From NCBI RefSeq assembly GCF_000003815.2, contig NC_049996.1:7790012-7854011 (forward strand): a DNA stretch of 64,000 nt, read 5' to 3'. Source of the stretch: Branchiostoma floridae. Lineage: Eukaryota; Chordata; Leptocardii; Amphioxiformes; Branchiostomatidae. Shown one piece after another: positions 1 through 63,159 of this stretch. A program made the position numbers and the translations under genes. Positions within the stretch are counted from its first letter, which is position 1. Every line of letters starts with the position of its first letter. Below the pieces are notes generated by a model. That model saw only the letters and a program-made list of their open reading frames with translations, did not search any database and was not told where the DNA came from.

Positions 1-3000
1 CGTCCTTGTCCTCACTGTGGACATATAACGTTACATCGTAAATATGTTGTAAAACTCAATTTTTTGCATGCTGTAGGTACAGAAGTATAGGCTAGCTTGA
101 TTGTTGCAGTGCACGTTCAAATTTTCAACTCCCAAATAAACCGTACGTACCACAGTTCTGCTCGTCACTGTTGTCCCCACAGTCGTCCCTGCCGTCACAC
201 CGAGAAAGCTGATGGAACAGGGCTCCATTGTTACAGGCAGAGGCCGCTGGAGAACGAAAGGGCTATGTTGATCCACCACTTATGCATAACTTAACATTCA
301 ACTATCTCTGTGCTTCAATGTCTCTCTGTCTGTCTCTGTCTTTTCGTCTCTCTGTCTCTCTCTGCCTCTCTGTCTGCCTCTATCGTTGTCCCTCTTTCTC
401 TCTCTCTCTTTCTGTGTTGTCTCTCTCTCTTTCTCCCTCTTTCTCAGAGTGATACAGAATACAAATCTTTATGTGTTATATGTATTAATTGGAGTGAGCG
501 GGGTGTAAATGGCTCAATCCTTGCCCAGCATATATACACATCAATACAGAACTAGCGTCTACAAACATTACAGCCAGTTTACTCACAGCAGGACTCGTCA
601 CTGCCATCCAAACAATCCTCCACATCGTCACATCTAGCATCTTGTCCACTCGGTTCACCATAGCAGGGTATGTGGGTATTGGCACACATTTTTTGTGAAT
701 CTATACACTGTCCATTGCTGCAGGCCAGCCTTCCTTGACGCTCGCCTGTATGAAGTATAAAATGAAGCAATTCGTTTTTTAACAAATCTTCATTTTCGAA
801 AAAAAAAGGGTTGTAGTTATTAAAAAACATAAAACATTTTTATTGTGATTCCTGAAACTGCAGCAAATACACAAAAAGGATAGCCATCGCTTTTGCACAA
901 CAGAAAGGCAACTGACTAAGCCACCCAGGCGTTTGAAAATAGACAAATAAACAAACAAACAATCAAACAAACAGGCATAATTGCATAATGTTTTCCCGTA
1001 CACCTTTTTCAGGCTACTCGTACACAATGGTATATCATATCACGAAGAATACGATATAAAAGGAAGCAAAAACAATATATTTTCCTATCGGGGAAAGAAA
1101 AATACACATTCAGTTATTGATGTACATGAAATAAATACACAATCCAGTAAAATTTTGGGAAGAGAATTACTAACAAAAATCTCTATGAAATCATTAGAAA
1201 ACGAAAGTGGGAAATATGTAATGAAAATGAGTACTTAAAACTGACCTTTGGAAATTTGAAGGTCAAGCACTGACTCAACTTAAAAAATCTACAAGAACAA
1301 GAGAAATGCAAAGAAATTGAAAGAAACATTGTGTCCATAATTACAGCAGTTCTGCTCGTCTGTACTGTCTCCACAGTCGTCTGTACCGTCACACACTTCT
1401 GCCTTGTTGATGGCGGCTCCACTCGGACAGATCTCTTTATCTACATTCAAGGAGAGAAGTCAGAGGATCGGTGACAATGTCTCTACACTACTAATTTACG
1501 AAGATTGTAATTTTTAGACATAACATAAAGCCTTATACAATGGTCAGGGGTACATAAGCATTTGCACAAATTTCATGGAATTTGCATTAATGTTTATGTA
1601 AAACGTATTCGTAGTTAAAACGTACGAGGGTAAGGCAACTATCTCACAGAGCTCTGTTTGTTAATTAACTGGTCCAAATTTGTAGCCTGTCGACATTGCG
1701 TTTATTTTATAAATTTCAAAAAGGTTCAATTCGCAAAATGTTTTGAATGGACCAGAACAAGTAGCATCGATATATCGCCAGTTGCAACAAGAGCGGTCAC
1801 TTCATACTGCACTGGTATCACTACTATTTCCAATAAAGATATTTTGTATTTACGTTGGGAACAAAACCTGGGATCCCAGGCGTAAACCTTTGTGTAAGGC
1901 TGACCGGTCGCCTGCATATTAAAGAAAATTGGCGAAAGACTCGCAAAGTTGCGTAATAATGTGTCGGCGACAGGCGCAGCGCGAAATGCCTGACTTACCG
2001 CAGTCGTTTTCATCGCTCCCATCGTCACAGTCCACTATCCCGTCACAGACAACCTCATGGACGTCACAGTCGCCGTCTGTACACACCGTCCTCTCAACTC
2101 CGGAGCAAGCTGGACGGGCATAAGAAGATACACAGAACTAGGTATTATTAGAAGATACTATTGGTTTGTGTGTGGATGGACTTTGCCAGATGCATTCTAA
2201 AGGAGCAATTTGTCTGTTTCTGAATTGAACGTGGATGCGTGTTAAGGCTTAGGTCACATTTCCAAAGCGGAGCCCATTTGTTTTAAGAAACGAAAAGTTT
2301 AAATGCATACCTAGAAATATGTACAAATCATGTCCATGAATCGTATTTGGAAATTTCGTGTATCTTGGTGTATTTTATATTATTCTTTTCGCTCCCGAGA
2401 GCTGCCCGGCCAGGCCCCGCTTTGGAAATGTGAGCTAAGCCTAAGTCATATGCTTTTGCCACCACCATTTGCATTTTTTCGCACACTTTTATATGGCAAT
2501 AGTTCTAATCCGTTCATTAGACTAAAAGATCATGGTAGTATTATGTTGCTCTTATTATTCGAGGTCAGCACATACATTTCACATGCTTCACTCACTCCAC
2601 TATAAACTGTGCGTGTATCGTTTGTTGCGTGGTATTAATGAATAATGTTGAATTCTCTGTTTTGTTTGTTTTTGCTTTGCTGCTGTATAAAGCTGGTATC
2701 TCAGTGGGCCGTGCCAAATGGTGACAACTAACTGCAGCAACTCTAGCCAATTTTCAATTGCGGCCACACTCAGGTGCAACACACGGGTCACCTCAACAAC
2801 AACAAAAAAAAAACAACTGCGAAATGCCGTGAACTCAATTTTTTTCTCCAGATTAGAGACAAAATCAAATTCTCAATCGACCGCAGAATTACAAACCGAT
2901 GCATACTGGTCAAGATTAATCAAATAAAGATTTGTAGTCATTGCGTCCGTTGGCGACTGTTTTTCGTCTTGTTCACGCCCATTCGCGACATTATGTAATA

Positions 3001-4537
3001 TCTTTTCTATTAAAACATGCTAAAATCATGAAGATTCGTCAGCCCATCCTTGTGTTATTCCCTGTCAAAGCCTGACACTAAACCAGCCCCTACAGTTCCA
3101 AAACAAGCCATGAGTGGGCCCAAGGCTACACTGCTTACCCTTAGCCAGAAGAGCTATCTACCACTTTAGAATCATGACCACGGCGTGTTCAGAACAGGAG
3201 ATATCAAACAAGGAAGTTCCGTTGTAGTACCGCAACAAGCCGCTAGGGGGCCAAAAAATCTAATCGTTTCTGGGTCTCATCACTGGTTAAGTCAAACAAA
3301 ATATCAGTACAATCCATCCAGGTGATCTCGAGTTACATGTAAGATGGTATTCTACACACAAACAAATAAACACGAGCGCTACCAAAAATACAACCTTCTT
3401 GGCAAAGGTAATAAAGACAAATCTCTAACATGACCAGTCAGGTGAGATACCATCTTAAGAAGTACTGAGCACTTANNNNNNNNNNNNNNNNNNNNNNNNN
3501 NNNNNNNNNNNNNNNNNNNNNNNNNNNNNNNNNNNNNNNNNNNNNNNNNNNNNNNNNNNNNNNNNNNNNNNNNNNNNNNNNNNNNNNNNNNNNNNNNNNN
3601 NNNNNNNNNNNNNNNNNNNNNNNNNNNNNNNNNNNNNNNNNNNNNNNNNNNNNNNNNNNNNNNNNNNNNNNNNNNNNNNNNNNNNNNNNNNNNNNNNNNN
3701 NNNNNNNNNNNNNNNNNNNNNNNNNNNNNNNNNNNNNNNNNNNNNNNNNNNNNNNNNNNNNNGTGCAGAGTTTCAAACCAAAACGCCCCATTCCATTCTT
3801 CTGTGTTTCTGAAATTCTGCGCCACTTTTCCAAATCAACAAATTAGACCGAAAATGATTGATATTGCCTGGTAAATTCGCCAACAAAGACTTGCGTTCTA
3901 ACGTTCAAGGCACGCGTAACTTCTCCTACGGCCAAAATGACCCTGTCGGGAACTCCAAATCCTCGAAAAGTACGATTTCAAACTCGGCGCATGGTGATGT
4001 GGTGTTTTTTCCTGTTTTACTGCACTTACTTAACACGTCGAGACAGTTTCTTGTATCAAGAAATTCAAGAACAAACAAAATTGTTCCTGTTAAATCTTAC
4101 AACGTTATATATATTTCCTAAATTTAGTTAAGGTAAGGAAATATCAGTCAAACGAATTTACACTCTCGAGAATTAAAAAAAAATCTAAATCTAAATTACT
4201 TGCTTTGTTTGTCTAAAGATTATCTTCCTGTCACGTTAAAGAAAATATTAGAGCATTTAGAAGAACAATCTTGTTTCATGACAAATACTACATGGAAAAA
4301 AAATTACGAAAATATTCTTCAGGGGTCAGAATGTTTTCACGAAGACAGTAAGGTTTTCTTCTTTTAAGTAAAAAATATGTATAAGAAGGAACAGGAAAAT
4401 AAGAAAAATGCATTTTGGTACTGATACGGATATGGAAAACCATCCTTCTTACCTGTTAGTGAAAATGCACCTGGCAGACAGTGACACAGACCCAACAGTA
4501 ACACCAGTGATGTTCGGATGAGTTTCAGGTTGTCCAT
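1..4537 (-). CDS. Gene 1: tandem LDLa-type mosaic receptor gene, partial (runs off the left edge)
   Basis: This span covers the 5' part of the leftmost of three tandem paralogues: a signal-peptide exon (4453-4537) and LDLa exons at 1999-2109, 1345-1440, 587-745 and 151-246. Every exon has AG/GT borders and phase-1 ends, so they splice in one frame. By comparison with gene 2 the next exon would be a kringle exon at about position 28 or below. The sequence at 1-20 resembles that exon start but seems to lack about 17 bases, including the first cysteine; too little is visible to judge. A 287-base assembly gap at 3476-3762 could hide a discoidin-like exon like the one in gene 2. The product is inferred to be a cell-surface or secreted-ectodomain receptor. 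No disabling change is seen in the visible exons. Confidence 0.7.
151..246 (-). CDS. Gene 1 LDLa half-module exon next to the kringle
   Basis: A 96-base exon, acceptor GTTCTCCAG, donor TGTG|GTACGTACGG, phase 1-1. It encodes [15 protein letters not shown] and then the GDNSDEQNC signature. It is the last LDLa before the kringle in all three paralogues, and again only four cysteines are present. Confidence 0.8.
247..586. repeat. Intron with a CT-rich simple repeat
   Basis: This gene 1 intron contains a run of TCTC/TGTC units at about 318-444. On the minus strand this is a GAGA-type purine tract. Equivalent runs sit in the same intron of gene 2 (about 18352-18460) and gene 3 (about 56093-56234), so the tract is older than the duplications. 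No other element is seen. Confidence 0.8.
587..745 (-). CDS. Gene 1 LDLa exon, long variant
   Basis: A 159-base exon, acceptor TTCATACAG, donor TGCT|GTGAGTAAAC, phase 1-1. It encodes an LDLa-like module with an insert between the second and third cysteines and ends with [15 protein letters not shown]. The homopolymer coding for Gln-Lys-Met has six A residues here and in gene 3, which keeps the frame open. The gene 2 copy has seven and is shifted. Confidence 0.85.
746..1344. other. Gene 1 intron, no recognised element
   Basis: AT-rich intron sequence between LDLa exons. It contains a short (AAAC)n-like tract near 940-975 and otherwise aligns to 56538-57143 of gene 3. The gene 2 intron at 18826-19607 is diverged. 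No coding signal was found. Confidence 0.6.
1345..1440 (-). CDS. Gene 1 LDLa half-module exon (four cysteines)
   Basis: A 96-base exon, acceptor GAATGTAG, donor TGCT|GTAATTAT, phase 1 on both sides. It encodes the C-terminal part of an LDLa module, with [16 protein letters not shown] as the calcium-site signature. Only four of the usual six cysteines are present. Gene 1 differs from genes 2 and 3 in the loop before the first of these cysteines. The short form is shared by all three paralogues, so it is a stable variant and not decay in one copy. Confidence 0.8.
1441..1998. other. Gene 1 intron, conserved with genes 2 and 3
   Basis: Intron sequence that is nearly identical to 19704-20262 of gene 2 and, up to the equivalent of about 1860, to 57240-57614 of gene 3. 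The 75-codon open frame here is an intron accident repeated by duplication, with no protein signature. Confidence 0.6.
1999..2109 (-). CDS. Gene 1 LDLa exon (six cysteines)
   Basis: The exon is bounded by CCCGTCCAG at the 5' side and G|GTAAGTCAGG at the 3' side, phase 1 at both ends. It encodes a complete small LDL-receptor class A module with six cysteines, ending in the calcium-binding signature [16 protein letters not shown]. LDLa modules fold around calcium and bind ligands outside the cell. The paralogous exon in gene 2 (20263-20373) is the same length (111 bases). Gene 3 has no counterpart, because its homology to the array ends at about 57614. Confidence 0.85.
2110..2772. other. Gene 1 intron, duplicated in gene 2
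   Basis: Non-coding intron sequence matching 20374-21030 with few changes. The match stops abruptly after GCGGCCACAC at 2772, where gene 2 instead enters the inverted-repeat element that starts near 21031. Confidence 0.65.
2773..3475. other. Unmatched intron segment before the assembly gap
   Basis: No coding potential is seen. The stretch from about 3015 to 3475 (with AACAAGCCGCTAGGGGGCCA) has the look of an interspersed-repeat tail, but no second copy exists in the window to prove it. It is absent from the paralogous position in gene 2. Confidence 0.35.
3476..3762. other. Assembly gap (287 N)
   Basis: Unknown bases. By comparison with gene 2, a discoidin-like exon could be expected between the signal-peptide exon and the first LDLa exon, so this gap may hide coding sequence. 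A second gap of 108 N is at 38655-38762 in the intergenic part of the other segment copy; the first copy (about 7286-7420) reads through it. Confidence 0.95.
4453..4537 (-). CDS. Gene 1 exon 1: signal peptide
   Basis: The exon encodes [20 protein letters not shown] followed by LPGAFSLTG, a typical secretory signal with a short basic start and a leucine-rich core. It ends ACAG|GTAAGAAG, a strong donor that leaves one base (phase 1), matching the phase of every downstream LDLa exon. The ATG at 4537 is chosen because the codons before it (CTG AGA AGA) give no nearer ATG in frame. A nearly identical exon occurs in gene 2 at 35818-35902. The promoter should lie just above 4540, but no clear TATA box was identified. 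Confidence 0.75.
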
Positions 4538-4549
4538 TCTTCTCAGCAC

Positions 4550-6012
4550 TCCCGCAGCTTTGTGTTCTACAATGTACAGCTACTCTGTACCGTCTTTTCT
4601 GTAAACTGCTGGGTGCAAATATTCACAATCGCGTGCACTGTGCTCGTATCAACTGATACAAAAGAATGGTAGCCTCTTTAGCAGGCTTCACGGCAGCAGC
4701 ATATCACGGCTGATTTAACGCCCTGTAATGCGTTACTTTTTCATTTGCCGTCAGCCTGAACCGAGGCTAGATGAGCGGCATGCTTCATGTATCACGTGGT
4801 TGTGTTTGTGCTGTGTTGTGTTTCTCGCTCACATAGCAAAAATTGTTCGAAGCACGACATGTATTTGGCTATTGCTAACAACAACAACACAAAAAACTTC
4901 ACCGTCCAGAACGTGATCACTCCGAAACTACCCGAAAAGAAGCAAGTCTGAAACCATCCGGTAATAGAATAGACCTTTTCAAAATTCGCTTCCTGCAAGA
5001 ATAGACTATTACTAACAATAATAAAAATCTGAGAATAATCTTGAATTAACAAAAAGAATTGTGCGTTTTGTTCCGCTACCAACATCCGCTGTATGATCTT
5101 ACTGATTAACCTGTTGCGAACTGACCAACTCTAACAAAACTGGACTCTAGGCTAGTAACGTTAGTTTACCTTTATCCGTTGTTAACCTATATTCGGTTTT
5201 TGTTTTCAATAATAGTGCATTTAGGAATCAAGTCCACGGACTGTGGTTCCAAATCAAAATGAAATCTTCTTTGGAAACAACGTAATTTGAAAACACCGTC
5301 AACTTGATATCCCTAAATACCCTGTTTTTGAAAACATCGGATATAGGCCACCCCCCGAATAAAGTTGAACTTATGATACAAACAAACGCATGCAATTCGC
5401 CCTCTCATGAGGAAATGCCGTCTGCAACACCGAAGTAATCAACAGTGTTGGTTTAACGTGCACAGATCTGGACATGCCTAAAGTTACGAGAAGGTGAAGA
5501 GACTGGTACCAGCTCGGTAGCTACCGAGCTGGTACCTTCTCTTCTCACGCATACTATAGTATGCGTGAGAAGAGAAGGTATCATTCATTACCAATATTCT
5601 CCTTCCGTTGTACTCACTTAGAATTCAACTGATAAGCTAAACATTTTCTTTATGTTAATAATGCTTTATTTCTACGCTTTGTCCAGTACAAGACAACAAC
5701 TCAGTAAACCCAGTCTGTTAGTAGATACAACTTATTTAAGTTGGACTCCTTTTCATGGTGGTCACCGAAATGACTCAGCAATTTGACCTCGCACGGATGA
5801 AAATTACAACAAAAATATATGCATTTTTTATGTCAATGTTTTTTTTCCTCGGACTACAATCTATGGAACTCTCTATCCTCATCCCTTAGCTCAAAAATCT
5901 TTTCCATTCTTTCTAATTAGCTTATTATCTGATCGTGGTCGTTATACCCCTGTCACATTTGAATAAAATCAATCGGACGAAGATTCTGCGGCAATCGTCT
6001 GAGCTTTGCTTA
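4550..6012. other. Intergenic region upstream of gene 1
   Basis: This is expected to hold the gene 1 promoter and 3' flank of gene 2. It is non-coding and near-identical to 35903-37376. It contains a compound palindrome at 5505-5580 that is absent from the other copy. A partial Harbinger-like end (TACCCCTGTCACAT) lies near 5945. No confident TATA box or regulatory site was identified. Confidence 0.5.
5505..5580. repeat. Two overlapping perfect palindromes
   Basis: A 32-base perfect palindrome (5505-5536, arms GGTACCAGCTCGGTAG) overlaps a 48-base perfect palindrome (5533-5580, arms starting TACCTTCTCTTCTCACGC). The paralogous site 36878-36914 reads straight through without the inverted block. 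The extra 39 bases at 5521-5559 are an inverted copy of the two flanks. This fits a local template-switch mutation after the duplication. Confidence 0.95.
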
Positions 6013-6805
6013 TACCCCCCTCACATTAGGCGACAATCGATTGGAAGACTAGTCTACGAGCTCTAAATGGCATTTTTTGTGAGTAAGACGTCCGGTTTTC
6101 TCACGATAATCTTTTTAGAGATCGCCGGCAAATTTTCAGGGGTCGTACGATGGTCACGGTGCGGCAAAACATGTTTTTAACATAAGCGACAAGTCGCAGG
6201 AGATCTCTGAGATCGCAGAGCTCGTTACCGAGTCGCAGCTGCAGATCGTGCGTGCAAATCGTGCGTACCTCGCAAGGGTATCGGTCAATAGTCTTGCGTC
6301 AATCCAACGATTGAAGACCGATAGGTGAGCACAGACATAGTCATTAATCATCGAGCGCAAATCGGACGGCGAACGCCCGTCAGTCGGGAGACGTTCGGGT
6401 GACGTTCGCCCGACTTCCGTTTGTTTAACAATTTTGGAAATGTGAGGGTAATTCTAACATTGTAGTATGTAGGCTGGCTTTGTGACACGCTTTCCTTTCT
6501 TGTGTCATTTCAATCATGCCCGCGCATTACATTCATTGGTAATAAGGATTCCGACAACAAAATAAGCAACATTTATCTCTTGCCTTTTTGAGGAACGTTC
6601 TGTGTTACCTTGTCCGCGTGTAAGAGGTCATGGGATGTTCATTATCATAGATTTATTCACGGTCGATCTCACGAGCCTCGCTTATATGTGAGGGGGAGAG
6701 TTCTTGGGCGAAAAATACGCAATACCCTCTTAAGATCTTAAAATCAGCCGACCTGCCTGTGATCGCGAAGTACGTCCGAAGATCGTGTATAATGTGAGGG
6801 GGGTA
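6013..6805. mobile_element. Non-autonomous Harbinger element (MITE), copy 1
   Basis: Ends are TACCCCCCTCACATTA on the left and its inverse on the right, flanked by TTA at 6010-6012 and 6806-6808, the 3-bp target duplication typical of Harbinger elements. Terminal and subterminal sequence (for example 6327-6410) matches the termini of the complete Harbinger at 23027-28093, but no transposase is present. It is an internally deleted or foldback derivative. The same insertion is at 37377-38175 in the duplicated segment, so it predates the duplication. Confidence 0.85.
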
Positions 6806-6808
6806 TTA

Positions 6809-7846
6809 GGGCTCCGTCGTACGATTCTGATGCCATAGGACTAACCATGGATATCATTTGGTGTACCAAGGCAGTTAAACTTTGCAAGAGACGGTCATTT
6901 ATGTCCTCCATTACTACGGATTCTTATTACTTTGTGACTGGAGGGTAACCTCCAGCAACAGAGTCTTGTAATCACTTGGTACGTTGAGTGTTCGCACCTA
7001 GATCACTATGTTCCGTATGCCGCAATCGCATGTGGATTTGCATGTCGTCTGTACTCCGTTGGGAAATGATGCACGATATTTTTATTTCGCCGTAGCTGTT
7101 TTTATTATGGATGTAATAATTTCAGTTTTCACCCCTACGCCGTCCGGTATAGTGGGTTCAGGTCTTCCTTATGATTGAACCTTAAGCCTTGTGGTAATTT
7201 GATACAGTCAAGCAGATGTTGTCCTCGTCGGACTATGCCATCTCGTTCGGGCTTTGCGTCTGCAGTATTGAGGTCGGTTTGACATAGCATACTGTTAACA
7301 TTTTGCGCGGTTGATAGTCATATGCATTTTATGGTTAGAACGTGTTTGATCCTTGGGATCATTTTTTGGGGGGTAGGCGTTTTCATTATCGATGTAATAA
7401 TTTGATAAATCACCCCTATTTCCCTGGTATTGTGGAACAGCTGGCCTATATACGATGGGGTTTGACAATTACTTATCTCTAAGCAGATATTGGGTTATGT
7501 TATGTCCACAGCTGTCATTGACCCACTTTTTAAAGTGGTGTCGTCTCAAGTATCCATTGTGAAGCTGTGTTGTTGTTTCCATTTGGTGTCGTTCGATTGA
7601 GACGCTGATTTCGCTATGTTTTGAATTTGGCAGTGATAGGTATGTTAGTTTTTAAGTAAGATTTTGGTATAAGCTGATGTGATGTGTTCTTTATGCGATA
7701 TAAACACCGAGTCATACCCCACAGAAAACATCACAACCGACATAAACCATAATCAAGTCACAGAGTATGTTACCAGCGGTCACTTATTGCATTTGAAATA
7801 ATTTCTCCGCGAGTTGAACTTCACCTGTCTAGAATAGATCTTTGAG
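6809..7846. other. Intergenic, no gene seen
   Basis: Non-coding, matching 38179-39202. A short stretch at about 6810-6900 resembles the small MITE at 58454-58659 (shared wording such as GTACCAAGGCAGTT versus GTACCAAGACAGTT), so it is probably a fragment of that family. Confidence 0.4.
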
Positions 7847-8183
7847 TAAAGCTAAGGGCACAACCCACCGTACGTGCAAATACGTGCTGTCTGCGTGCCA
7901 AAACGTGGGCAATCTTTGGGATCCGTAAGTCGTTAGTACCGCCTGCGTACGAACTCGTCGGGAATCCGACGGATTTTGGAGCACGCAGGCACGCCGTAGA
8001 ACTTTACGTACAGGCAAAACTTGGTGTGCCATCGGGCTGCAGATTCGACCCCCGTACTTGGCAATACGTACGACTTGCCTACCCTGTACAGCCTGAAAGT
8101 TATCAGAAACATGTGGCGGACATGGCCTCCTAAAAACACGTACGAACAAACTGCACGTACGGCGGGTGGTGCCCTTAGCTTTA
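7847..8183. mobile_element. Palindromic MITE, copy 1
   Basis: Inverted ends TAAAGCTAAGGGCAC at the left and the inverse at the right extend imperfectly for about 40 bases through CCGTACGTGCA. The body is 337 bases with no coding capacity; the open frames reported on both strands are a result of its inverted symmetry. No clear target duplication was found. The same element is at 39203-39539. Confidence 0.7.
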
Positions 8184-8199
8184 GTTGTATGGCGTTAAC

Positions 8200-8350
8200 G
8201 TTGCGTGGCGTAAAGGTAGCGTGTGTGGTTCAGAATCCCGAGGTACTGGTATCGAATCCCGATTTGATCCGACGTTGTGTCCTTGAGAAAGACACTTCAT
8301 GCAAAGTTTCTCGCTTCACACACTCGTGATAACGGGTATCTATCTTCGGT
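8200..8350 (+). repeat. tRNA-derived SINE-like repeat
   Basis: It contains a box-B-like GTATCGAATCCCG followed by TCCTTGAGAAAGACACTT, a core shared by many tRNA-derived SINEs of marine animals. A second copy is at about 39558-39700 through the segmental duplication. No poly(A) or target duplication was delimited. Confidence 0.4.
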
Positions 8351-12826: not shown

Positions 12827-13822
12827 CTGTAGCGGATGCAATAAAGCTTTAATAAATCACAATGCCTCTAATTAAGATGTTATGTTGAAAATATAAACAC
12901 GTCCTTTTCATTTTCGTAGATGCTGAGCAAAAGGAACAATTAGAATCAGGGATTCTTTGTCGAAAATGAAAATTAGTCCAATTATAACGATGGAGGTTAG
13001 ACACCCTGATAACAGGAGATGTAGGACAACAGTAACTCATTAGACAAACAAATGGATAGATTGTACATATCTAGTTGTCTATCAGACACTAAGCTGTTAT
13101 CTTGCAGGTCAATAACAGCTAAGGAAATCCCTTCACCATGGATACTAGTAAACAACATGGTAAACAGCATAGTCCAGTTTTAGCACTAATCTTACATAAT
13201 GTGCAGCATGTAACAAGATTGTTGCACTTTTATTTCAATTCCATTTGAACAAACTACACGTTATGCTGTGGACAGAAAGGGGCACAATGAGAAGATTTGT
13301 TAGAAAAAATTCACATTTTTGTACGTGTAAAACTTTTCTTGTCACCGTTGAAATCGGCACTAGCAGATGGATAAATAGTGATAAAGACGTGAAGTTAAAA
13401 TCGCTGTCAGTTGTTAGCATCAAGGTACATCAAGTCTATGATGTGGTTGGATGTGAAAAACTCATAGGACTGTTTTTAAGCTGTGATAAGCAATCAAGTG
13501 TACGAAAGGGTTAATTCGTTTCAAAATACCATGTAATGTATTTTCTGTCTTACTTTCTCTAAGACTTTTCACCACGCACACGGTTTCAAATATATGTTAA
13601 TCTAATCATCCGATGTTGTTTAATTAGTAGAGTTGTAAGATGTATTCTGTATTCTTTCTCTTTTTTTGTTGCAGTTTATAGTTCACCATAAAAATTATTG
13701 TATTTTTTGTCGTGTCAATAAAGCTTATATCAATATGGTGAACAGTTGTTGGCCAGCATGAGGTCGGAGTCGATGAGGCTGCTATCGGCCTGATTTTACC
13801 AGGCTAGTAGAGGTTTACTTAC
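12827..13822. other. Gene 2 intron between SMB and 7TM exons
   Basis: AT-rich intron, matching 44158-45279. A plus-strand CAATAAAGCTT near 13717 and an open plus frame at 13245-13514, both kept in the other copy, suggest an old retroelement tail, but no family is recognised. Confidence 0.45.
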
Positions 13823-13952
13823 TCAAAGTCTTCGCAGCAGTCACCGAAAAAGCTGCAGTCTTCGTCACAGTAGCAAAGTCGTAATAGGAAATACTTTGCA
13901 CAGGTGTAGTCTCTATGGCAGTCCTGGCCAACGGAGTCTGGTGATAAAGGGT
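13823..13952 (-). CDS. Gene 2 somatomedin-B exon
   Basis: A 130-base exon, acceptor TATCTTCTCAG, donor GA|GTAAGTAAAC. It encodes DCHRDYTCAKYFLLRLCYCD followed by EDCSFFGDCCEDFE, the tightly spaced cysteine pattern of somatomedin-B with its CYCDEDC and DCC cores. Seven cysteines are in this exon; the usual eighth may be the Cys in KWDC, some 20 residues later in the 7TM exon. SMB is a small disulphide knot used for protein binding, as in vitronectin. It joins the 7TM exon in frame. Confidence 0.88.
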
Positions 13953-14948: not shown

Positions 14949-15068
14949 ATTTGTAAATTCCTTATTTTCGTGAAGTTTGGACATTAACGATACATTTTTA
15001 GTTATCTTTCGTCATCATTTGAGTAACGAGAAAAGATCAGACCTACAGGTATGCTCAAGCTCTCTTAC

Positions 15069-18053: not shown

Positions 18054-18199
18054 CTGTGGACATATAATGTTACATTGTAAATGTTGTGCACAAAAGAAGG
18101 TGCTCGTAAAATTCCATTTTTGCATGCTGTATAGTAGGCACAGAAAGTATGGGCTAGCTTGATTTTCAATTTTTTTACTCCCAACTAAACCGTACGTAC

Positions 18200-37373: not shown

Positions 37374-37376
37374 TTA

Positions 37377-56100: not shown

Positions 56101-59100
56101 GTCTCTCTGTCTGTCTCTGTCTTTTTGTCTCTCTGTCTCTCTCTGCCTCTCTGCAGCTGTCTCCCTCTGTCTTTGTCTCTCTTTGTCTCTCGCTCTCTCT
56201 GTTTCTGTCTCTCTGTCTCTCTCTCTTTCTCAGAGTGATACAGAATACAAATCTTCATGTGTTGTATGTATTAATTGGAGTGAGCTGGGTGTTAGTGGTT
56301 CAATCCTTGTCCACCATATATACACATCAATACAGAACTAGCGTCTACAAACATTACAGCCAGTTTACTCACAGCAGGCCTCGTCACTGCCATCCAAACA
56401 ATCCTCCACATCGTCACATCTAGCATCTTGTACTTGTCCACTCGGTTCACCATAGCAGGGAATGTGGGTATTGGCACACATTTTTTGTGAATCTATACAC
56501 TCTCCATTGCTGCAGGCCAGCCTTCCTTGACGCTCGCCTGTATGAAGTATAAAATGACGTAATTCTTTTTATAACATATCTTCATTTTTGAAAAAAAAAG
56601 GGTTGCAGTTAAAAAACATAAAACATTTTTGTTGTGATTCTTGAAATTGCAGCAAATACACAGAAAGGATAGCCATGGCTTTTGCACAACAGAAAGTCAG
56701 CTGAATAGGCCACCCAGGCGTTTGAAAATAGACAAATAAACAAACAAACAAACAATCAAACAAACAGGCATAATTGCATCATGTTTTCCCGTAGCCCCTT
56801 TTCAGGCTACTCGTACACAATGATATATCATATAACAAAGAATAAGATATAAAAGGAAGCAAAAACAATATATTTCCTATCGGGGAAAGAAAGAATACAC
56901 ATTCAGTTATTGATGTACATGAAACAAATACACAATCCAGGAAGAGAATAACTAACAAAAATTTCTATAAAATCATTAGAAAACGAAAGTGGGAAATATG
57001 TGATGAAAATGAGTACTTAAAACTGACCTTGGGAAATTTGAAGGTCAAGCACATGAAAGTGAGATAATATGCACCTGACTTAACAAATCTGCAAGACCAA
57101 GAGAAAGGCAAAGAAATGGGAAGAAACATGTGTCCATAATTACAGCAGTTCTGCTCGTCCGTATTGTCTCCACAGTCGTCTGTACCGTCGCACACCTCTG
57201 CCTTGTTGATGGTGACTCCACTCGGACAGATCTCTTTATCTACATTCAAGAAGAGAAGTCAGAGGATCGGTGACAATGTCTCTACACTACTAATTTACGT
57301 AGATTGTAATTTTTAGACATAAGCATTTGCACGAGTTTCATGAAATTTACATTAAGTTTATGAAAAACGTATTCGTAGTTAAAACGTACGAGGGTAAGGC
57401 AACTATCTCACAGAGCTCTGTTTGTTAATTAACTGGTCCAAATTTGTAGCCTGACATTGCGTTTACTTTATAATTTCCAAAAAGGTTCAATTCGCAAAAT
57501 TTTTTGAATGGACCAGAACTAGTAGTATCGCCAACAAGAGCGGTCACTTCATACTGCACTGGTATCACTACTATTTCAAATAAAGATATTTCGTATTTAC
57601 GTTGGGAACAAAACATAGAAAATCGAGCAGATTAAAATGGGACTGAGCAGAGCACTTGGGACTAATGCTTGTAGCCTTTCACAGACTACACCTATATATC
57701 AGATATTTTGTAAAAATGTTCCTTGTTACCCAACGGATCATTATACCCCCCCCCCCCCCAGTGGGAGTCTTCATGCTTCATTGAAAATTTAAAAAAAATC
57801 TTAAAATCCCGGGTTTTTCTTTGAAAAAAAAACGGGATTTTTTTGGGGGGTCCAAATAAAATCCCGGGTTTTCTTTGAAAAAAAAACGGGATTTTTTGGG
57901 GGTGCCCAAATAAAATCCCGGGTTTTCTTTTAAAGAAACGGGATTTTTTCGAATACCCTGATAAAATCCCGGGTTTTTTAATTAAAGAAACAGGATTTTT
58001 TGCTACTAACTTCTAAGGACACTGTCAGATAAACTGTGCCAGACTATATGTTAATAAGAATGGGAAGTTAAGTCATTATCAATGGCACTGAAAGTAGCAG
58101 GCACGTTTTACCTGGGGTACAGACTCGGGTCTATATCAGAACCACTGTACGTTGCGGTTTACATCATGTTGTTGTGACTTCAGTGATTAATGAGCAGAAT
58201 GCTGCTGATGATAATAGTCATAAATTGATGTAAGGAGGGGTGCAGATGTGTGATTATCATTGTGAAAAGGTAGACGAAGTAATGTTTGAACTTAAAGAAA
58301 GTACAGAAAACGTGTCTTGATTCATATTCTTATGTGCAAAATATGTGACACACTCCTGGTCTGTATCAACAAGTTCTTGTGCTGAAACTGTGTTCCACAC
58401 ACACACGCACGCACGTCGTAGAATAGGTAACTGCAACTAGGTAACTACCCGTAAAGGCGCAGTCACATAGGTCCTGCGATTGTTGTATGATTTTGATGCC
58501 ATGAGATTTTCAAGCAGGTTGTGCAAGAACAAACCACCGACATGGATCAAAAACAGCATTTTGTGTACCAAGACAGTTGATACGTACATTTTTGTGCGGC
58601 CAAATACCTTTAGTTAGCGATCGTACAGCGATCGCACGCGCTATATGTGACCGCGCCTTATACCCGCCTCACATTAGGCGCGATTCGATCGGAAGACTAG
58701 TTTACGAGCTCTAAATGACATTTTCGTGAGTAAGACGTCCGGTGTTCTCACGATCATCTTGCGATTTTTAGGTATCGCCGGCAATTTTCAGGAGTCTTAC
58801 GACGGTCGCGGTGCAGCGAAACATGTTATTAACATAAGCGATAAGTCGCAGGAGATCTCCGAGATCGCAGAGCTCGTTACCGAGTCGCAGATCGTGCGTG
58901 CAAATCGTGCGTACCTCGCAAGGGTATCGGCCAATAGTCTTGCGTCAATCCAACGATTGAAGACCGATAGGCGAGCACAGACATAGTTATTAATCATCGA
59001 ACGCAAATCGGATGGCGAACGCCCGTTAGTCGGGCGACGTTCGGGTGACGTTCATCCGACTTCCGATTGTTTACAAATATTGAATTTCTGGGAATGTGAG

Positions 59101-62100
59101 GGTGATTCTAACATTGTGGCCCCTGTGGCAGTATGTAGGCTGGCTTTGTGACACACTTTCCTTTCTTGTGTCATTTCCATTATGCCCGCACATTCCATTC
59201 ATTGGTTACAAAGTTAAGATTTACAAAGATTCCGACAACAAAATGAGCAACATTTATTGATCTCTTGCCTTTTTTGAGGAAAGTTTTGTATTCCCTTGTC
59301 CGCGTGCAAGAGGTCATGGGAGTTTCATTATCATAGATTTATTCACCGTCGATCGCACGAGGTTCGCCTATATGTGAGGGGAACAGGTTTTGGGCGAAAG
59401 ATACGCAAGACCATCTTAAGATCTTAAAATCAGCCGACCTTCCTGCGATCGCGAAGTACGTCCGAAGATCATATATAATGTGAGGCGGGTATTAATACGA
59501 GACCTGACGTATGTTTGTTCTACGACGTCTCTGCAAATAAGTAAATGAACTATAAACTTGTCATCATTCAGCCTAGTTGGTCATAATCTCCTGCCCGCGA
59601 AACAGTGTACAAAGACTATGAAATTGCAAGACACAGCTGATACAATTAATTGTTATATTTCTTTATTCGTTTTCAATCTTGCAATCTCTGTGTGGACAAA
59701 TATGTCACATTGGCCGTAGAAGAACTTTATTGCACGACAGTTGTACACGGTACAATGCATGGCAACAATTATTACACCAAGTACAAAATAGAGGTCATCA
59801 TCATCGGTCGACGTGCTTACACACGACGGGGTTATACCGCCCCTTACGGAGTCACATACCATTTCGTATGGCTAGTTACAAGATGTGCCAGGTGAATCAT
59901 GTAAATCACTGTGTTGCTGATACGAGACAGAGGTTCGCCAGGCCTCCATCCTTGTGATTTGCAGTGAATCACCAACTCCAGACAGCAAGATTTGCACCAT
60001 CGCACACCGCACGTTCGGTGGGTTCAAGTGCGCGGGGTGTTGCTCTCCCTAAACACAGGACCTTCATTTCACGCTCTATCTGAGGGACAGCTGTAGCCGA
60101 AGCTAGACCATAGCTAAACCCATACAGTCCTACATTTTCACGATTACCAAGAAGCGAGAAGAAGCCGAACTTCTTTGTTTGACTAGATCTGTGATACTTT
60201 TATGCATATACATATGTTTTTTTGTCTTGTTGTGACCTGTACTTAGCTCTGTTGGGCAAAAATGTACAATAAAGGTCTTTATTCATTCATTCAATAACTG
60301 AATGTGGGGCGAAGGCACACTTTTTAATCACGTAACGTGTGACATACCATCAAGCAGCGACGCGTTTTGCTGAGTATAATGGAGTGTATCGATATTTTTG
60401 TTTCGAGACGATATCGTTAGCCTGGAAACCATACCCCAACCTCAAAAATATCTTTTTTGTTGGGGTCTGGCAGGATGGCTGTAGAAATGTTCTCGAAGGT
60501 CCTTGCTCAGAGGGAGGAGAACCTAGGATTTATGACCACTCACACCACAGGTAGCCAGCTACAACGCACCACAGTTGGTCAGCAGGCTATCACAGTAGCG
60601 AATCAGGTATTTGGTGGCCACTGTTATGGATTCAAAAAATACAGTTGGAGGTCATTAACCAATCATGGCAGGGGTGTAATTACCTCCTGCTGATCCTGTG
60701 CTGTTCTATTGGTGGAGTTTTTTGCCCACTATAAGGTGTAAAATTGAGAACCCGGCCTATGCCATCCGGCCAGACCCCTGCACGATAGATACTTGAGACC
60801 GGGCTGGGGGTTGGTAACCAGGCTACGATATCGTATACGTATAACGATATCGTTTTAATCGAAAATTACGTATACCGTAGACGTATTAAGGTACGTTTTT
60901 GATATGATATTTTGACACGGAAATGATGCCATAAAAGGCATGATAAAATGATACGTCTATCGTAGCGCGCGAGCTGGCCCATTTGGTTGCAGCGCGTTAA
61001 AGTATGGTCATACCCCCGTCCGGACAATGGGAACGACCATTTAAATGAAGCTTTTCGTGCAAAGTATCATCACACCATCGTCCGGCAATGGGAACGACCA
61101 AATACGTCAGCACAACGTTTTATCATTAGCACAGTGACACGCGGTAAGACATGCCAGGCGGATTTCATAACAGAATTAAGTCAAATCCAAACCAACATTA
61201 AAGGAAAATTATTCACCAGTAGCTGATAATGTTACAATGACTGCAATAATGTCTTGACAAAAGATTTAAGGAATGTCTGTTCATGATAAATTCTTTTTGA
61301 TCGCGCTGACAGCATGATCCTGTCAACAATGCAAGTTTTCCCACAGTTTACATGATCATCATGTCAACAATGCAAATAGCCACTCCCAAAGATGGCTACA
61401 AAGATCATGCTATTGAAGTATCGTAAATAGACAAACTGTCGTGATGCTGCTACGAATACTCTACAGAAATATCGTAAGTTGGGCAAACTGTCATGATTCT
61501 GCTTAGGTACACGCTACTAAGACAGTAAGTCGGGCAAACTGTCGTGAAACTGTAAAGAAACAAGCTGTAACTGAGAAAGAGAAGAATGTTGAAAGATATA
61601 TGTTATGCTAAATAAAGACCGAATTTGCATAATAAATGAGAAAATGCTATGATGCCATTGTGATAAATGATGGGAACTTCTTACTTGTATCATTTGGAAG
61701 TTATGTACAGGTGAACATAATTGAACATTAATTATGAAAATAAGGTCCTCATTTGCATAAATTATCAGAAATTGCGATGAACGCCTTCTTTCATATAGAT
61801 GGGGACATGACCAAGTAATATAATTTATGCAAATAAGAACCTTATTTGCACAATTAATGACAATACAGCAGTTGTAAAAGATGGAATTATTTGGTGAAGA
61901 TATGGGGTATGATTTGCAAGGATAACGCTATATACTACCCCAGTAACCCTCAAACAGTCTTCTACACTCTCACTCGCTCACTCACTCACTCACTCACTCA
62001 CTCACTCACTCACTCACTCACTCACTCACTCACTCACTCACTCACTCACTCTCTCTCTCTCTTTCCCTCTCTCTAGATCTCACACACACACAGACACACA

Positions 62101-63159
62101 CACACATGTACACACACACACATGTACACACACACACACACACAGTCACACACATGTATACATGTATACATACATACACACAAACGCTACATATTCTCGC
62201 TTGGCGAGGGTTATTTTCTACAAGGAGGCTTCGAGAGCGTAGCAAATGTACCTATTTGACAGACGAAGGGCTTTTGATGATCGCAGTTAGTGTCGTCCCA
62301 TTTGAAGCCTTCACCCTGCCAGAGTTGCCCACATTGCTCATCAACATTGTTGGGCTCTCCCGGTGCCCAGTTGGTGAAGCCACTGTTAACCGCTGTACCA
62401 TCAGACCATGTCCACCCTCCCTATACAATGAAAAGTCATGCAGTTGTCAGAAAGCATATCAAAGCGTATCTTTTGCTTAAAACTATTATTAAAAGAAACT
62501 CATTTACGTCAAGCGGCTTTCATCAGATGAAAACTGATGACTGCTCCTTGTTCCTGTCGATACAAAAGTCCCGTTGACAAAGAAAAATTCCGCAAATGCC
62601 AGTGAGGATTAGGCATATTTTTCCACTTTTCTATTTTTTTTTTCTGACATAGATAAGCCCTTTTTTGCATGCACCGAATTGAAATTGTGGCCGCTATTTG
62701 TCTGCATGCTGTCACCCTGCCTGTATGCCGCACGTCCTGTCTATCTATGTTGGAAGAAAGTTTGTATTGTTCTATAGAATTTATATTCAGTCTTTGTGTA
62801 GAATGACATCAATGAAATACATGAAGAAAAAAAATTTAGCCAGATGCAAGGTCATATAAAAACAACGAACAAAAATGACGGAAGAAAATTTAAAAAAATG
62901 ATAGATTGGGGAGCAAACAGACAAAATACATTCTTATCAGGCGTGACACTCACTGTCATTTGTAGAAGTCCAATCCAATAATCTGTACCAGCATTAACCT
63001 CCGCAATCATAGCGACAAGGAAGTCCTGCAGATCCTGTGACTTCACAACGGCAAGACGGCCTCCATCTGCGGCACAGGTCTGGGCAGCAGCGTCGTACGT
63101 CATGCTCACCGCAACAACCTTGTACCAGGTTCCACTTCGCTCTGTGTACCCTTGAAACC
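41757..63159 (-). CDS. Gene 3: C-type lectin-LDLa-kringle-SMB 7TM receptor, 5' end not seen
   Basis: The rightmost paralogue and the only one whose visible exons are all open. In order: C-type lectin exons (62954-63159, 62252-62420), three LDLa exons (57144-57239, 56373-56537, 55938-56033), kringle (55562-55801), half-kringle (45737-45927 or longer), SMB (45280-45415) and 7TM exon (41757-44157). The lectin domain ends in phase 1 and joins the LDLa exons in frame. That the lectin exons belong to this gene is inferred from strand, order and phase; about 4.9 kb separates them from the LDLa exons. No signal-peptide exon was found; it may lie beyond 64000 or in 63160-64000. Predicted role: cell-surface receptor with carbohydrate- and protein-binding ectodomain. 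Confidence 0.72.
44158..45279. other. Gene 3 intron between SMB and 7TM exons
   Basis: Matches 12827-13822, with an extra stretch of about 130 bases (about 45062-45185) near an AATAAAGCTTG. No gene was seen. Confidence 0.5.
45280..45415 (-). CDS. Gene 3 somatomedin-B exon
   Basis: A 136-base exon, acceptor GTCTTCTTAG, donor CA|GTAAGTAAAC. Encodes CGGDYTCAESFPSRLCYCDE and DCSFFGDCCQDFQ. Compared with gene 2 it has two extra residues in the leader (GSRSVGQDC) and a more canonical SMB sequence. Several amino-acid changes are packed into this exon although the flanking introns are almost identical, so the exon may have evolved fast. Confidence 0.9.
45416..45736. repeat. Gene 3 intron with a short (GAGT)n run
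   Basis: Contains GAGT/GATT units at about 45553-45636, a reduced version of the 14.5-kb array in gene 2. Confidence 0.75.
45737..45927 (-). CDS. Gene 3 half-kringle exon
   Basis: Encodes VCQRWDSQSPHSHPHTPQAH, GLDENFCRNPD, RPWCYTTDESKRWDFC and MECAG. Donor GCTG|GTATGAGAG is phase 1. As in gene 2, the nearest acceptor gives a phase-2 start, while the acceptor one unit upstream (exon start 46030) gives a phase-1 start compatible with the kringle exon at 55562 and an open frame. Which one is used cannot be told from sequence alone. Confidence 0.75.
45858..46150. repeat. 103-bp kringle-exon repeat, gene 3 (three units)
   Basis: Units spaced 103 bases apart with the same acceptor-plus-exon composition as 15185-15780. 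The array appears to continue at 52955-53110 on the far side of the LINE, so the LINE probably inserted into it. Confidence 0.88.
46158..47145 (-). mobile_element. CR1/L2-like LINE, 3' part
   Basis: Encodes the late reverse-transcriptase region in broken frames: STMNVGYVDNVEMSRTLL (a changed YADD box), then KASRRLHFLRLLTKQ, YVSLVRPFLHS and QRVQQRALKIF, typical of the thumb and connection region of non-LTR retrotransposons. It ends with a minus-strand AATAAAGGATG tail near 46158. Frameshifts and a changed catalytic box show that it is dead. Confidence 0.82.
47154..50500. mobile_element. Nested insertion splitting the LINE
   Basis: Sequence between the two LINE parts, flanked by the 9-base direct repeat ACCATGCGG at 47145-47153 and 50501-50509, a candidate target duplication. 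It contains LINE-like tails (AACCTTTATT near 47229 and 48968) and a tRNA-like sequence at about 50263-50336, but no intact gene. The 129-codon plus frame at 49263-49652 has no recognised signature. Confidence 0.5.
50263..50336 (-). tRNA. tRNA-like sequence, probably pseudo-tRNA or SINE head
   Basis: On the minus strand it has a perfect box A (TGGCCGAGTGG), a box B (GGTTCGAGTCC) and a T7 run just downstream, as in a Pol III unit. The acceptor strands do not pair well and the anticodon arm is irregular, so a functional tRNA is doubtful. Confidence 0.45.
50510..52940 (-). mobile_element. CR1/L2-like LINE, 5' part
   Basis: Minus-strand frames, broken by shifts, give an N-terminal region (LLTNVRSLGNK-like, start of the AP endonuclease), the endonuclease middle (GGGTAVYSHVDIHTRRL), and early reverse transcriptase: MRPISLLSVLAKLMERCILK, DQYAYMRCSSTTIALV and TSGVPQGGVMSP. 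The order endonuclease then RT defines a non-LTR element. The remaining RT is at 46158-47145. The element sits within the 103-bp repeat array of gene 3. Confidence 0.85.
52955..53110. repeat. 103-bp kringle-exon repeat, remnant beyond the LINE
   Basis: Two partial units (GAGCCTGTGGTGTGTGAGGA and GAGCATGTGGTGTGTGGGGA) lie just 5' of the LINE, matching the array at 45858-46150. Confidence 0.85.
53263..54139. mobile_element. 877-bp MITE with TTA target duplication, absent from gene 2
   Basis: Inverted ends CCCTATCCAGACTGGG, flanked by TTA at 53260-53262 and 54140-54142. The gene 2 equivalent near 16434 reads ACTCGTTAACTATGG with a single TTA, an exact empty site. The interior is rich in TGACGTCA/TGACGTAA and has two copies of GCCATCTTGGATT; no coding frame. 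The insertion is younger than the duplication. Confidence 0.9.
54143..55561. other. Gene 3 intron, duplicated in gene 2
   Basis: Much of it matches 16435-17160 and 17602-17813. The stretch 54300-54780 has no counterpart in gene 2 and shows no gene; it may be another insertion. Confidence 0.5.
55562..55801 (-). CDS. Gene 3 kringle exon (complete)
   Basis: A 240-base exon, acceptor TATCCACAG, donor GAAG|GTAAATTC, phase 1-1. Encodes CYYLRDRGTSYRGRENRGNS, CQFWTSQYPHPH, GLEQNYCRNPDGKDRPWCY and IRWMYCEEVFAC. All kringle cysteines are present. It differs from gene 2 at about ten residues, mostly in the first half. Confidence 0.93.
55938..56033 (-). CDS. Gene 3 LDLa half-module exon next to the kringle
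   Basis: A 96-base exon, acceptor GTTCTCCAG, donor TGTG|GTACGTATGG, phase 1-1. Encodes [15 protein letters not shown] and GDNSDEQNC with four cysteines. Confidence 0.83.
56034..56372. repeat. Gene 3 intron with CT-rich run
   Basis: TCTC/TGTC tract at about 56093-56234, the counterpart of 318-444; otherwise non-coding. Confidence 0.75.
56373..56537 (-). CDS. Gene 3 LDLa exon, long variant
   Basis: A 165-base exon, acceptor TTCATACAG, donor TGCT|GTGAGTAAAC, phase 1-1. Two codons longer than gene 1 (extra Val-Gln in SGQVQDARC). The frame is open because the homopolymer has six bases. Ends [15 protein letters not shown]. Confidence 0.86.
56538..57143. other. Gene 3 intron
   Basis: Matches the gene 1 intron 746-1344 better than the gene 2 intron. 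No coding signal. Confidence 0.55.
57144..57239 (-). CDS. Gene 3 LDLa half-module exon (four cysteines)
   Basis: A 96-base exon, acceptor GAATGTAG, donor TGCT|GTAATTAT, phase 1-1. Encodes CPSGVTINKAEVC and [15 protein letters not shown]. This is the first exon of gene 3 with homology to genes 1 and 2; upstream the architectures differ. Confidence 0.84.
57240..57802. other. Gene 3 intron and end of array homology
   Basis: Similarity to genes 1 and 2 ends at about 57614. A C14-type run lies at about 57745-57758. No gene seen. Confidence 0.55.
57803..58010. repeat. Four hairpin-forming tandem units of about 54 bp
   Basis: AAAATCCCGGGTTTT starts at 57803, 57858, 57912 and 57963. In each unit AAAATCCCG and CGGGATTTTTT face each other across a poly-purine spacer, so every unit can fold into a stem of about 9-14 bases. 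No coding role is visible. Confidence 0.9.
58011..58453. other. Gene 3 intron, no recognised element
   Basis: Non-coding sequence with a short CACACA run near 58398; nothing else recognised. Confidence 0.5.
58454..58659. mobile_element. Small MITE next to Harbinger MITE copy 3
   Basis: Inverted ends AAGGCGCAGTCACATA and the inverse of AAGGCGCGGTCACATA bound about 200 bases, with AGCGATCGTACAGCGATCGC near the right end. Flanks suggest a TA-type target, but this is not certain. A related fragment is at about 6810-6900. Confidence 0.6.
58661..59491. mobile_element. Non-autonomous Harbinger element (MITE), copy 3
   Basis: Ends TACCCGCCTCACATTA and inverse, flanked by TTA at 58658-58660 and 59492-59494. 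Interior is close to copies 1 and 2 and to the termini of the full Harbinger. It is an independent insertion, as it lies outside the duplicated segment. Confidence 0.85.
59495..60408. other. Gene 3 intron with a LINE-tail fragment
   Basis: No gene is seen. The 60222-60297 part repeats the LINE-like tail at 22858-22940 and ends in ATTC units. Confidence 0.5.
60418..60825. mobile_element. 408-bp MITE with 9-bp target duplication
   Basis: Inverted ends TAGCCTGG/CCAGGCTA, extending imperfectly to about 24 bases. Flanked by CGATATCGT at 60409-60417 and 60826-60834. A 9-base duplication fits Mutator-like or related elements. No coding capacity. Confidence 0.8.
60835..62251. other. Gene 3 intron with direct repeat and simple repeats
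   Basis: A direct repeat (CCGTCCGGnCAATGGGAACGACCA) is at about 61015 and 61078. Simple repeats are (CACT)n at 61968-62050 and (CA)n-rich sequence at 62081-62185. No gene recognised. Confidence 0.6.
62252..62420 (-). CDS. Gene 3 C-type lectin domain, second exon
   Basis: Acceptor TTGTATAG, donor ATAG|GTACATTTG (phase 1). Encodes GGWTWSDGTAVNSGFTNWAP, GEPNNVDEQCGQLW, FKWDDTNCDH and KPFVCQI. The EPN motif is that of mannose/glucose-binding lectins; WND is replaced by WDD, which could still coordinate calcium. The cysteine pattern is that of the second half of a C-type lectin domain. The exon joins the LDLa exon at 57239 in frame. Confidence 0.88.
62421..62953. other. Intron inside the lectin domain
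   Basis: AT-rich; no other element recognised. Confidence 0.6.
62954..63159 (-). CDS. Gene 3 C-type lectin domain, first exon
   Basis: Acceptor GCCCCAACAG (phase 1), donor ACA|GTGAGTGTC (phase 0). Encodes GTWYKVVAVSMTYDAAAQTC, ADGGRLAVVKSQD and AGTDYWIGL, the WIGL landmark of the fold. Together with the second exon it gives a domain of about 120 residues, a normal length. Expected to bind sugar on the extracellular side. Confidence 0.88.

Follow-up and report, generated by a model that had tools for sequence, protein, structure and literature searches.

Lectin modules within DNA transposons at an array of kringle and somatomedin B seven-transmembrane receptor genes in the lancelet Branchiostoma floridae

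Among the Adhesion G protein-coupled receptors of amphioxus, Nordstrom et al. 2008 (PMC2246102) list proteins with somatomedin B (SMB), Kringle, LDLa, C-type lectin, and (in a figure legend) discoidin domains, and the parts of that paper available here also describe a ten-gene expansion in which Kringle and SMB occur together. The locus described in the present study, C18:7790012-7854011 of the 513.4-Mb, 431-contig assembly of Branchiostoma floridae (“the window”, 64,000 nucleotides in length), comes from the same species and presents the same set of modules, in an array of kringle and SMB seven-transmembrane (7TM) receptor genes into which lectin modules were probably brought by DNA transposons. 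Neither the array, nor its apparent pseudogene, nor any transposon is described in the available parts of Nordstrom et al. The analysis was extended 70 kb beyond each end of the window, with all the positions being given in window coordinates (negative to the left of the window), and the whole assembly was the search space for the genome comparisons.

Transposons that carry sequences of other origin are known as Pack-type elements. In the main text of the survey of animal Pack-TIRs by Tan et al. 2021 (PMC8277862), elements with terminal inverted repeats (TIRs) contain non-transposon sequences, sometimes in multiple copies, and may form chimeras with host genes, with a median duplicated length of 224 bp, and the words Branchiostoma, lancelet, and amphioxus are absent; the element described here differs from these in carrying a complete two-exon extracellular domain in phase 1. 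In the lancelets, the speed of domain shuffling, and the role of transposons in this process, are disputed in the accessible portions of two papers. Huang et al. 2014 (PMC4284660) described domain exons of phase 1-1 and fast shuffling, which transposons may drive, while Banyai and Patthy 2016 (PMC4967905) ascribed the high rate to errors in the gene models. The link to transposons in the former, as far as the available text goes, is an enrichment at translocations, whereas the present evidence comes from individual elements, in which TIRs, a target duplication, and an empty site can be seen. In relation to the latter, the DNA evidence is independent of gene models, whereas the use of the lectins by a gene is not. 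In the consulted part of the lancelet pangenome paper, Lectin_C is among the domains over-represented in dispensable genes. No earlier report of lectin modules in lancelet transposons was recognized among the titles and abstract openings retrieved, from a coverage that leaves out most subscription journals, and the delivery of complete lectin modules into receptor introns by Pack-type transposons, themselves already known, appears to be new.

Genes 1, 2, and 3 of the array all lie on the minus strand, and it is gene 3, which runs beyond the window to 79.9 kb, that contains the C-type lectin (Table 1). Its exons follow the order signal, discoidin (DISC), LDL6, LDLk, LDLs, LDLf, kringle (KR), DISC2, LDL6b, two C-type lectin exons, LDLk2, LDLs2, LDLf2, KR2, half-kringle, SMB, and 7TM, with the exons of the right flank preceding the lectin. 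The spliced model, of 18 exons and 1819 codons, is free of stops, with GT and AG at 17/17 junctions (several of the donors being weak) and phase 1 at 15/17, the others being the internal junction of the lectin (phase 0) and the passage from SMB to 7TM (phase 2). The single signal exon and the single 7TM exon suggest that gene 3 is one gene. The lectin alone matches PF00059 (1.3e-23), and has EPN and WDD motifs, which are putative calcium-site motifs. A preliminary description of the window had placed the LDLa, kringle, half-kringle, SMB, and 7TM exons of genes 2 and 3 on the minus strand, together with the signal exon at 35902-35818, the discoidin piece at 34634, the lectin exons at 63159-62954 and 62420-62252, and the LDLa exon at 57239, all of which were recovered at these positions, and it had taken the module junctions to be in phase 1, as most of them are. 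Its view that the lectin of gene 3 takes the place of the discoidin and LDLa exons of gene 2 did not survive, given that gene 3 has both the discoidin exon and the six-cysteine LDLa exon (LDL6) twice (78614-78183, 77260-77150, 74659-74225, and 72861-72751), upstream of the lectin, which was, therefore, added rather than substituted; a lectin-for-discoidin swap was thus rejected. Gene 4, which is inverted at 86.2-97.1 kb in the right flank and has no lectin, presents the plain order signal-DISC-LDL6-LDLk-LDLs-LDLf-KR-half-kringle-SMB-7TM, and gene 3 is this plain order with a doubled DISC-to-KR block and the lectin.

The lectin exons of gene 3 are contained in a copy of a TIR-type transposon. 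A protein search with the lectin recovered copies that are 82-92% identical per exon on C4, C6, C7, C10, and C17, with the intron at the same position, and a first exon with 72% identity on C13. At the DNA level, introns and flanks are similar as well, and in the C4, C6, and C17 copies the similarity begins at 63780-63783. With a 3.6-kb query, the identity was 92% on C6 (over 2.9 kb), 92% on C4, 88% on C10, and 86-93% on C17 (in two pieces), with fragments on C5. Several copies of the element are, then, found at unrelated sites (C4, C6, C10, C17, and the window), and their neighbors differ. The C6 copy is 3241 bp in length, with 177-bp TIRs at 82% identity and the ends TATGGCAATATA and TATATTGCCATA, and the C10 copy also has TIRs (76-82%). 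The 166-bp terminus scores at 58 places, in 36 clusters, which include close inverted pairs of the form of a miniature inverted-repeat transposable element (MITE). None of the open reading frames of the C6 copy is transposase-like, as judged by eye only. Two places on C7 match the element only over approximately 63381-62081, and the lectin lies there between pentraxin and LamG-like exons; these may be the source of the module of the element, or an older landing.

Gene 1 lies mostly to the left of the window, with its SMB and 7TM exons at approximately -29.4 to -33.1 kb, and the position of its discoidin exon falling in or near an N gap at 3476-3762. Approximately 75 kb separates the stretch from -36.6 to +4.0 kb from its colinear counterpart at 38.2-79.1 kb, and genes 1 and 3 are 98.5% identical in 14 listed aligned pieces that total 26.6 kb, with 97.3% identity in the 7TM exon. 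The C-type lectin is missing from gene 1, which retains bases 2955-3033 of the element (79 bp, at -11884..-11962, with 93.7% identity), so that the element was present before the lectin was lost. The idea that the lectin entered gene 3 once the two genes had separated was rejected in favor of a loss in gene 1, given this 79-bp remnant, and the idea that the lectin block is bounded by a duplication of its own at 60396/64633 was also discarded, as the junction is blunt.

Transposons of the CACTA (EnSpm) family are marked by CACTA termini and a 3-bp target duplication. An element with the same marks, 7.16 kb in length (-21202..-14041), is found in gene 1 near the deletion of the C-type lectin, although it differs from the family in its cargo of an F-type lectin. 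Its 74-bp TIRs are 88% identical and start with CACTACAAGG, and the target duplication GGT is present on both sides, with a single GGT in the empty site of gene 3. The F-type lectin is a complete domain in two exons (-18040..-18270 and -19101..-19316), in the sense of gene 1, with phase 1 at all three borders and good acceptors. It matches PF22633 (1.3e-20) and the structures PDB 3cqo (3.7e-47) and PDB 1k12 (7.7e-24), and contains HX26RXDX4R, which we take to be the fucose motif. The insertion of the CACTA element and the loss of the C-type lectin both lie within one gap-free contig, at -25708..-3155.

The 1.6-kb DNA of the F-type lectin recurs on C3 (98%), C10 (91-95%), at four places on C7 (87-92%, in pieces), and on C5 (82-86%). 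The CACTA terminus was found at 40 places among the matches listed, that of gene 1 included, and it stands on the same strand ahead of the F-type lectin on C3 (by 10.4 kb), on C10 (1.7 kb), and three times on C7 (0.7-1.6 kb). The four best of the 39 other listed places (C3, C10, and C7 twice), together with C7:23511073, precede a copy of the F-type lectin, and the remaining 34 had no F-type lectin matched to them. The two vehicles meet on C10, where the C-type lectin element ends at 1161416, and is followed 239 bp on by the CACTA terminus (1161655), and then by the F-type lectin, all on the plus strand.

These observations point to a sequence of events in which a two-exon C-type lectin, with phase-1 splice sites on either side, is contained in a TIR element of approximately 3.2 kb that has multiplied in the genome, one copy of which lies, in sense, in the intron of gene 3 between LDL6b and LDLk2. 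The near-identical gene 1, in which the 79-bp remnant marks this element, has lost the lectin, and a CACTA element has entered the same intron-equivalent stretch with both exons of a complete F-type lectin. As the borders of the modules are in phase 1, either lectin could be spliced in without a shift of the frame, which would provide the same receptor body with different sugar-binding heads. This would be a possible route by which receptors that meet microbes change their sugar specificity in one step, with the frame undisturbed. The recurrence of the elements beside other phase-1 extracellular exons would make ferrying by transposons a general route of exon shuffling in the lancelets. The broader proposal, that lancelet transposon families of at least two superfamilies carry entire recognition modules in phase 1 (C-type lectin, F-type lectin, and perhaps PAN and WSC), and that the glycan-binding heads of receptors are gained and lost by transposition, differing between near-identical copies or alleles, is tentative, and is held here with less than even confidence. 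In this locus, the DNA itself shows the vehicle: inverted repeats are present, one insertion has both a target duplication and an empty site, and unrelated loci share the module. This makes the question of shuffling testable with existing RNA and population data.

The neighborhoods of the other copies of the element bear on the ferrying of modules by transposons. Exons on the strand of the lectin were found near the elements on C6 (WSC-like) and C17 (PAN), each in phase 1-1 as read, and on C10 both the F5/8C exon borne by the CACTA element and, 3.9 kb past the lectin element, a PAN exon lie on the lectin strand. The neighboring module exons are thus in sense with the lectin at 4/4 of the places judged, gene 3 included (p = 0.06 for orientation alone), and no module was seen on C4 in an inspection by eye only of 1800 letters on each side. 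This agreement is weakened by the position of the PAN neighbor on C17, 0.4 kb from TIR pieces, and by the fact that the F5/8C neighbor on C10 is borne by the CACTA element; the PAN exons may themselves be transposon-borne, and may be carried by relatives of the lectin element. When the best 40 rows of the list for each domain were compared with the 58 rows of the 166-bp terminus, places at 5 kb or less from a TIR numbered 5/40 for the C-type lectin, 6/40 for PAN, 3/40 for WSC, 1/40 for the F-type lectin, and 0/40 for both kringle and 7tm_2, with 0.03 expected for each. These counts are biased, in that those of the C-type lectin are the elements themselves, and those of PAN (C17) and WSC (C6) include the place of the query itself, which had been picked for its position beside an element; once this place is removed, the values are 5/39 for PAN and 2/39 for WSC. 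Kringle is not a clean negative, given that two lower-ranked places outside the best 40, C9:4726548 and C3:10124567, adjoin TIRs.

The alternative that retains the most weight is that gene 1 is no third gene but the other haplotype of gene 3, which the assembly has set beside it in tandem; this would make the difference in the lectins an allelic polymorphism. This is a serious possibility, somewhat short of an even chance. In addition to the identity of the aligned pieces and the near-constant offset of 75 kb, six of the seven N gaps of the 204-kb region fall in the gene 1 copy, and the seen part of Simakov 2020 (PMC7269912), which is taken to be the paper on this assembly, indicates that two haplotypes were assembled separately and then merged with HaploMerger2. 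Against this, the contig at 3763-38654 carries gene 2 and, beyond it, one more signal exon (4537), which means that some third gene start is real and physically linked to gene 2, and the downstream flank of gene 1 has no match in the array except for one inverted piece of 0.56 kb, whereas that of gene 3 continues into gene 2. The argument for transposons holds whether genes 1 and 3 are alleles or duplicates.

It is also plausible, if on balance doubtful, that the transposon-borne lectins are passengers, that is, decaying intronic exons that splicing seldom, if ever, includes in a receptor. Phase, sense, and open frames are what suggest that either lectin would be used by a receptor. Both exons of the C-type lectin retain their GT/AG sites and open frames in 5/5 copies of the element, and the two exon indels seen in these copies are both in frame, with a chance of approximately 0.05 that no stop would arise; these features, like the shared strand at the four judged places, stand against passengers. 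Selection provides a different picture. The branches within the element tree hold 47 nonsynonymous and seven synonymous changes, which show no sign of constraint, and the branch of gene 3 has only three nonsynonymous and two synonymous changes. The nonsynonymous divergence (dN) among the element copies is near or above the synonymous (dS), as would be expected of passengers. A comparison of the element lectins with C7, which mixes branches, yielded a dN of 0.06-0.09 and a dS of 0.11-0.16, and the intron divergence of the C17 copy is possibly inflated by its extra length. Positive selection on the element lectins is not claimed: a first count of 50:7, against a majority sequence, had counted shared changes repeatedly, and the 47:7 of the tree has a p of 0.01, 0.04, or 0.10, depending on the transition weight assumed (55:13, p 0.27, with the stem branch included).

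A number of other observations weigh, together with this absence of purifying selection, against the delivery of functional lectins by transposons. The outer donors of both the C-type lectin (GTACAT) and the F-type lectin (GTCAGA) are weak, and the introns are crowded with other repeats. In gene 1, the host of the F-type lectin, a one-base insertion at approximately -32492, directly after TM7, leaves the tail out of frame, which may be either a sequence error or the mark of a damaged gene. Weak donors and frameshift argue against the use of the lectins by receptors, and gene 1, with this frameshift and its N gaps, may not be a working receptor; it is also possibly allelic to gene 3. As for the vehicle, the flanks of the C6 element present, at best, a TA or TATA target duplication, and the copy in the window has its 5’ end but no 3’ TIR, so that no target duplication is visible for its insertion. 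Even so, an origin of the lectin modules in DNA transposons remains the probable reading of the array.

A read-through of the donor of exon 2 of the C-type lectin reaches a stop 13 codons on, and a separate secreted lectin made from these exons is possible. It is unlikely, however, that they form a small gene of their own inside the intron, given that no signal-peptide-like start was seen by eye at 63.1-66.7 kb on the lectin strand, that exon 1, with a stop closing its frame on the upstream side, requires an acceptor, and that the same splice sites are found on C7 between the pentraxin and LamG-like exons.

The model of the preliminary description, in which modules are exchanged among members of the array by unequal crossing over or gene conversion, is very improbable, for although it is favored by the mosaic of identities (95-96% between the bodies of genes 2 and 3, 97-99% between genes 1 and 3, and a signal region of gene 1 that is 95.0% identical to gene 2 and 89.8% to gene 3), and by the internal duplication of DISC-to-KR in gene 3, no other copy of the lectin was found within the array, the close copies lie on other chromosomes, inside an element, and the discoidin was not replaced in gene 3. 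A contribution from gene conversion is possible. What stands of that description is that a recent change has given the copies different lectin modules in phase 1, while their SMB-7TM body hardly varies; no exchange of discoidin and lectin took place between genes 2 and 3, and no transfer of modules between members was seen, the difference being the gain and loss of transposon-borne lectins. Its three paralogues with a shared body hold for genes 2 and 3, while only the head of gene 1, with the signal exon and four LDLa exons, lies in the window, and gene 2, which it had treated as a comparable receptor, has a truncated discoidin exon and both nonsense and frameshift lesions.

Table 1. Coordinates of the receptor exons and of the features related to the transposons (window coordinates; right flank, beyond the end of the window).
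Feature	Position	Strand	Remarks
Gene 3 signal exon	79874-79790	-	Right flank
Gene 3 DISC exon	78614-78183	-	Right flank
Gene 3 LDL6 exon	77260-77150	-	Right flank
Gene 3 KR exon	75192-74953	-	Right flank
Gene 3 DISC2 exon	74659-74225	-	Right flank
Gene 3 LDL6b exon (second LDL6)	72861-72751	-	Right flank
Gene 3 C-type lectin exon 1	63159-62954	-	Phase 1 in, 0 out
Gene 3 C-type lectin exon 2	62420-62252	-	Phase 0 in, 1 out
Gene 3 LDLa exon (LDLk2)	57144-57239	-	Phase 1-1; weak donor GTAATT
Gene 3 LDLa-like exon (LDLs2)	56373-56537	-	Phase 1-1
Gene 3 LDLa exon (LDLf2)	55938-56033	-	Phase 1-1
Gene 3 kringle exon (KR2)	55562-55801	-	Phase 1-1
Gene 3 half-kringle exon	45737-45922	-	Phase 1-1; acceptor choice uncertain
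Gene 3 somatomedin-B-like exon	45280-45415	-	Phase 1-2
Gene 3 ectodomain and 7TM exon (7tm_2), single	41760-44157	-	Open to 41760
TIR-type transposon copy containing the gene 3 lectin	60318-63783	-	5’ terminus at 63783; 3’ TIR missing, C6 match ends at 60318
Nested high-copy MITE-like repeat (~408 bp) in the lectin element	60418-60825		Absent from the C6 and C10 copies
Stretch missing from gene 1 at -11884	60397-64632 (beyond window end)		Blunt junction, no target duplication seen
Empty site in gene 3, intact, matching the 7.16-kb CACTA insertion of gene 1	58238-58241		Undisturbed GGAGGGGTGCAG
Gene 2 signal-peptide exon	35818-35902	-	Phase 1 donor
Gene 2 discoidin exon, truncated	34361-34634	-	~86-90 aa, versus 144-145 aa in the gene 3 exons
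Gene 2 LDL6, LDLk, LDLs, LDLf, and kringle exons	17814-20373	-	LDLs frameshifted
Gene 2 half-kringle and SMB exons	13823-15254	-	
Gene 2 ectodomain and 7TM exon	10268-12867	-	
Gene 1 head	152-4537	-	Signal 4537-4453, LDL6 2113, LDLk 1441, LDLs 746, LDLf 244

The domains of gene 3 were assigned in a Pfam run on 1733 of its 1819 residues, with the tail repeats excluded. The matches were Kringle (1e-60), LDLa (5e-27, in six stretches), Lectin_C (4e-22), 7tm_2 (PF00002, 9.5e-18, with hits of the genome search at both 7TM exons of the window), and F5_F8_type_C_2 (8e-7, barely above the cut-off), with F5_F8_type_C (1e-5) and SMB (0.0011) falling below their own cut-offs. No GPS or GAIN family was found at E<=0.01 in the gene 3 model, or at E<=1 in the ectodomain at 44198-43365, a scan that stops short of the stretch adjoining TM1, and a diverged GAIN fold is possible. 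The intron between the kringle and the half-kringle of gene 3 contains, at 50672-51052, a weak match to a reverse transcriptase (RVT_1, 0.0018, below the cut-off). In gene 1, approximately 675 bp are deleted at about -22190 to -22393, with the result that the first part of LDLk2 continues in frame into LDLs2.

Gene 2 appears to be a pseudogene. Its discoidin exon aligns with those of genes 3 and 4 until approximately 34361, where unrelated DNA begins, and an insertion at 21033-34361, with the CACTA terminus CACTACAAGG at 21033, takes the place of the 3’ part of this exon. In addition to this CACTA-type cut, the 7TM exon has two nonsense codons (12546-12544 and 12528-12526, where L and W stand in gene 3) and lacks one nucleotide at approximately 12305, and an extra A within an A run shifts the frame of the LDLs exon. 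An error of base calling could account for the A run, but hardly for all five lesions. The insertion also contains, at 25918-27531, MADF-like open reading frames below the Pfam cut-off, which are perhaps part of a Harbinger-type element, and, at 28440-32292, a 222-bp satellite of approximately 17 copies.

An initial motif scan of the plus strand of the window gave nothing useful. The array includes a duplicated unit, 3763-13975 and 34886-45439, which is 95-96% identical over most of its length and corresponds to the SMB-7TM body of one gene with the promoter and signal exon of the next, so that its ends fall inside genes on both sides. At 15189-15726 and 45857-46158, a 103-bp tandem array is built from copies of the intron-exon border of the half-kringle, several of which could act as decoy acceptors or partial exons. 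A 21-bp tandem repeat (10312-10689 and 41671-42025) lies within the coding end of the 7TM exon and provides SDVVAGG-like units in the cytoplasmic tail, and the tail ends in DEKETSF in genes 2 and 4, and in AWQAKLT in gene 3 and, beyond the frameshift, in the corresponding frame of gene 1.

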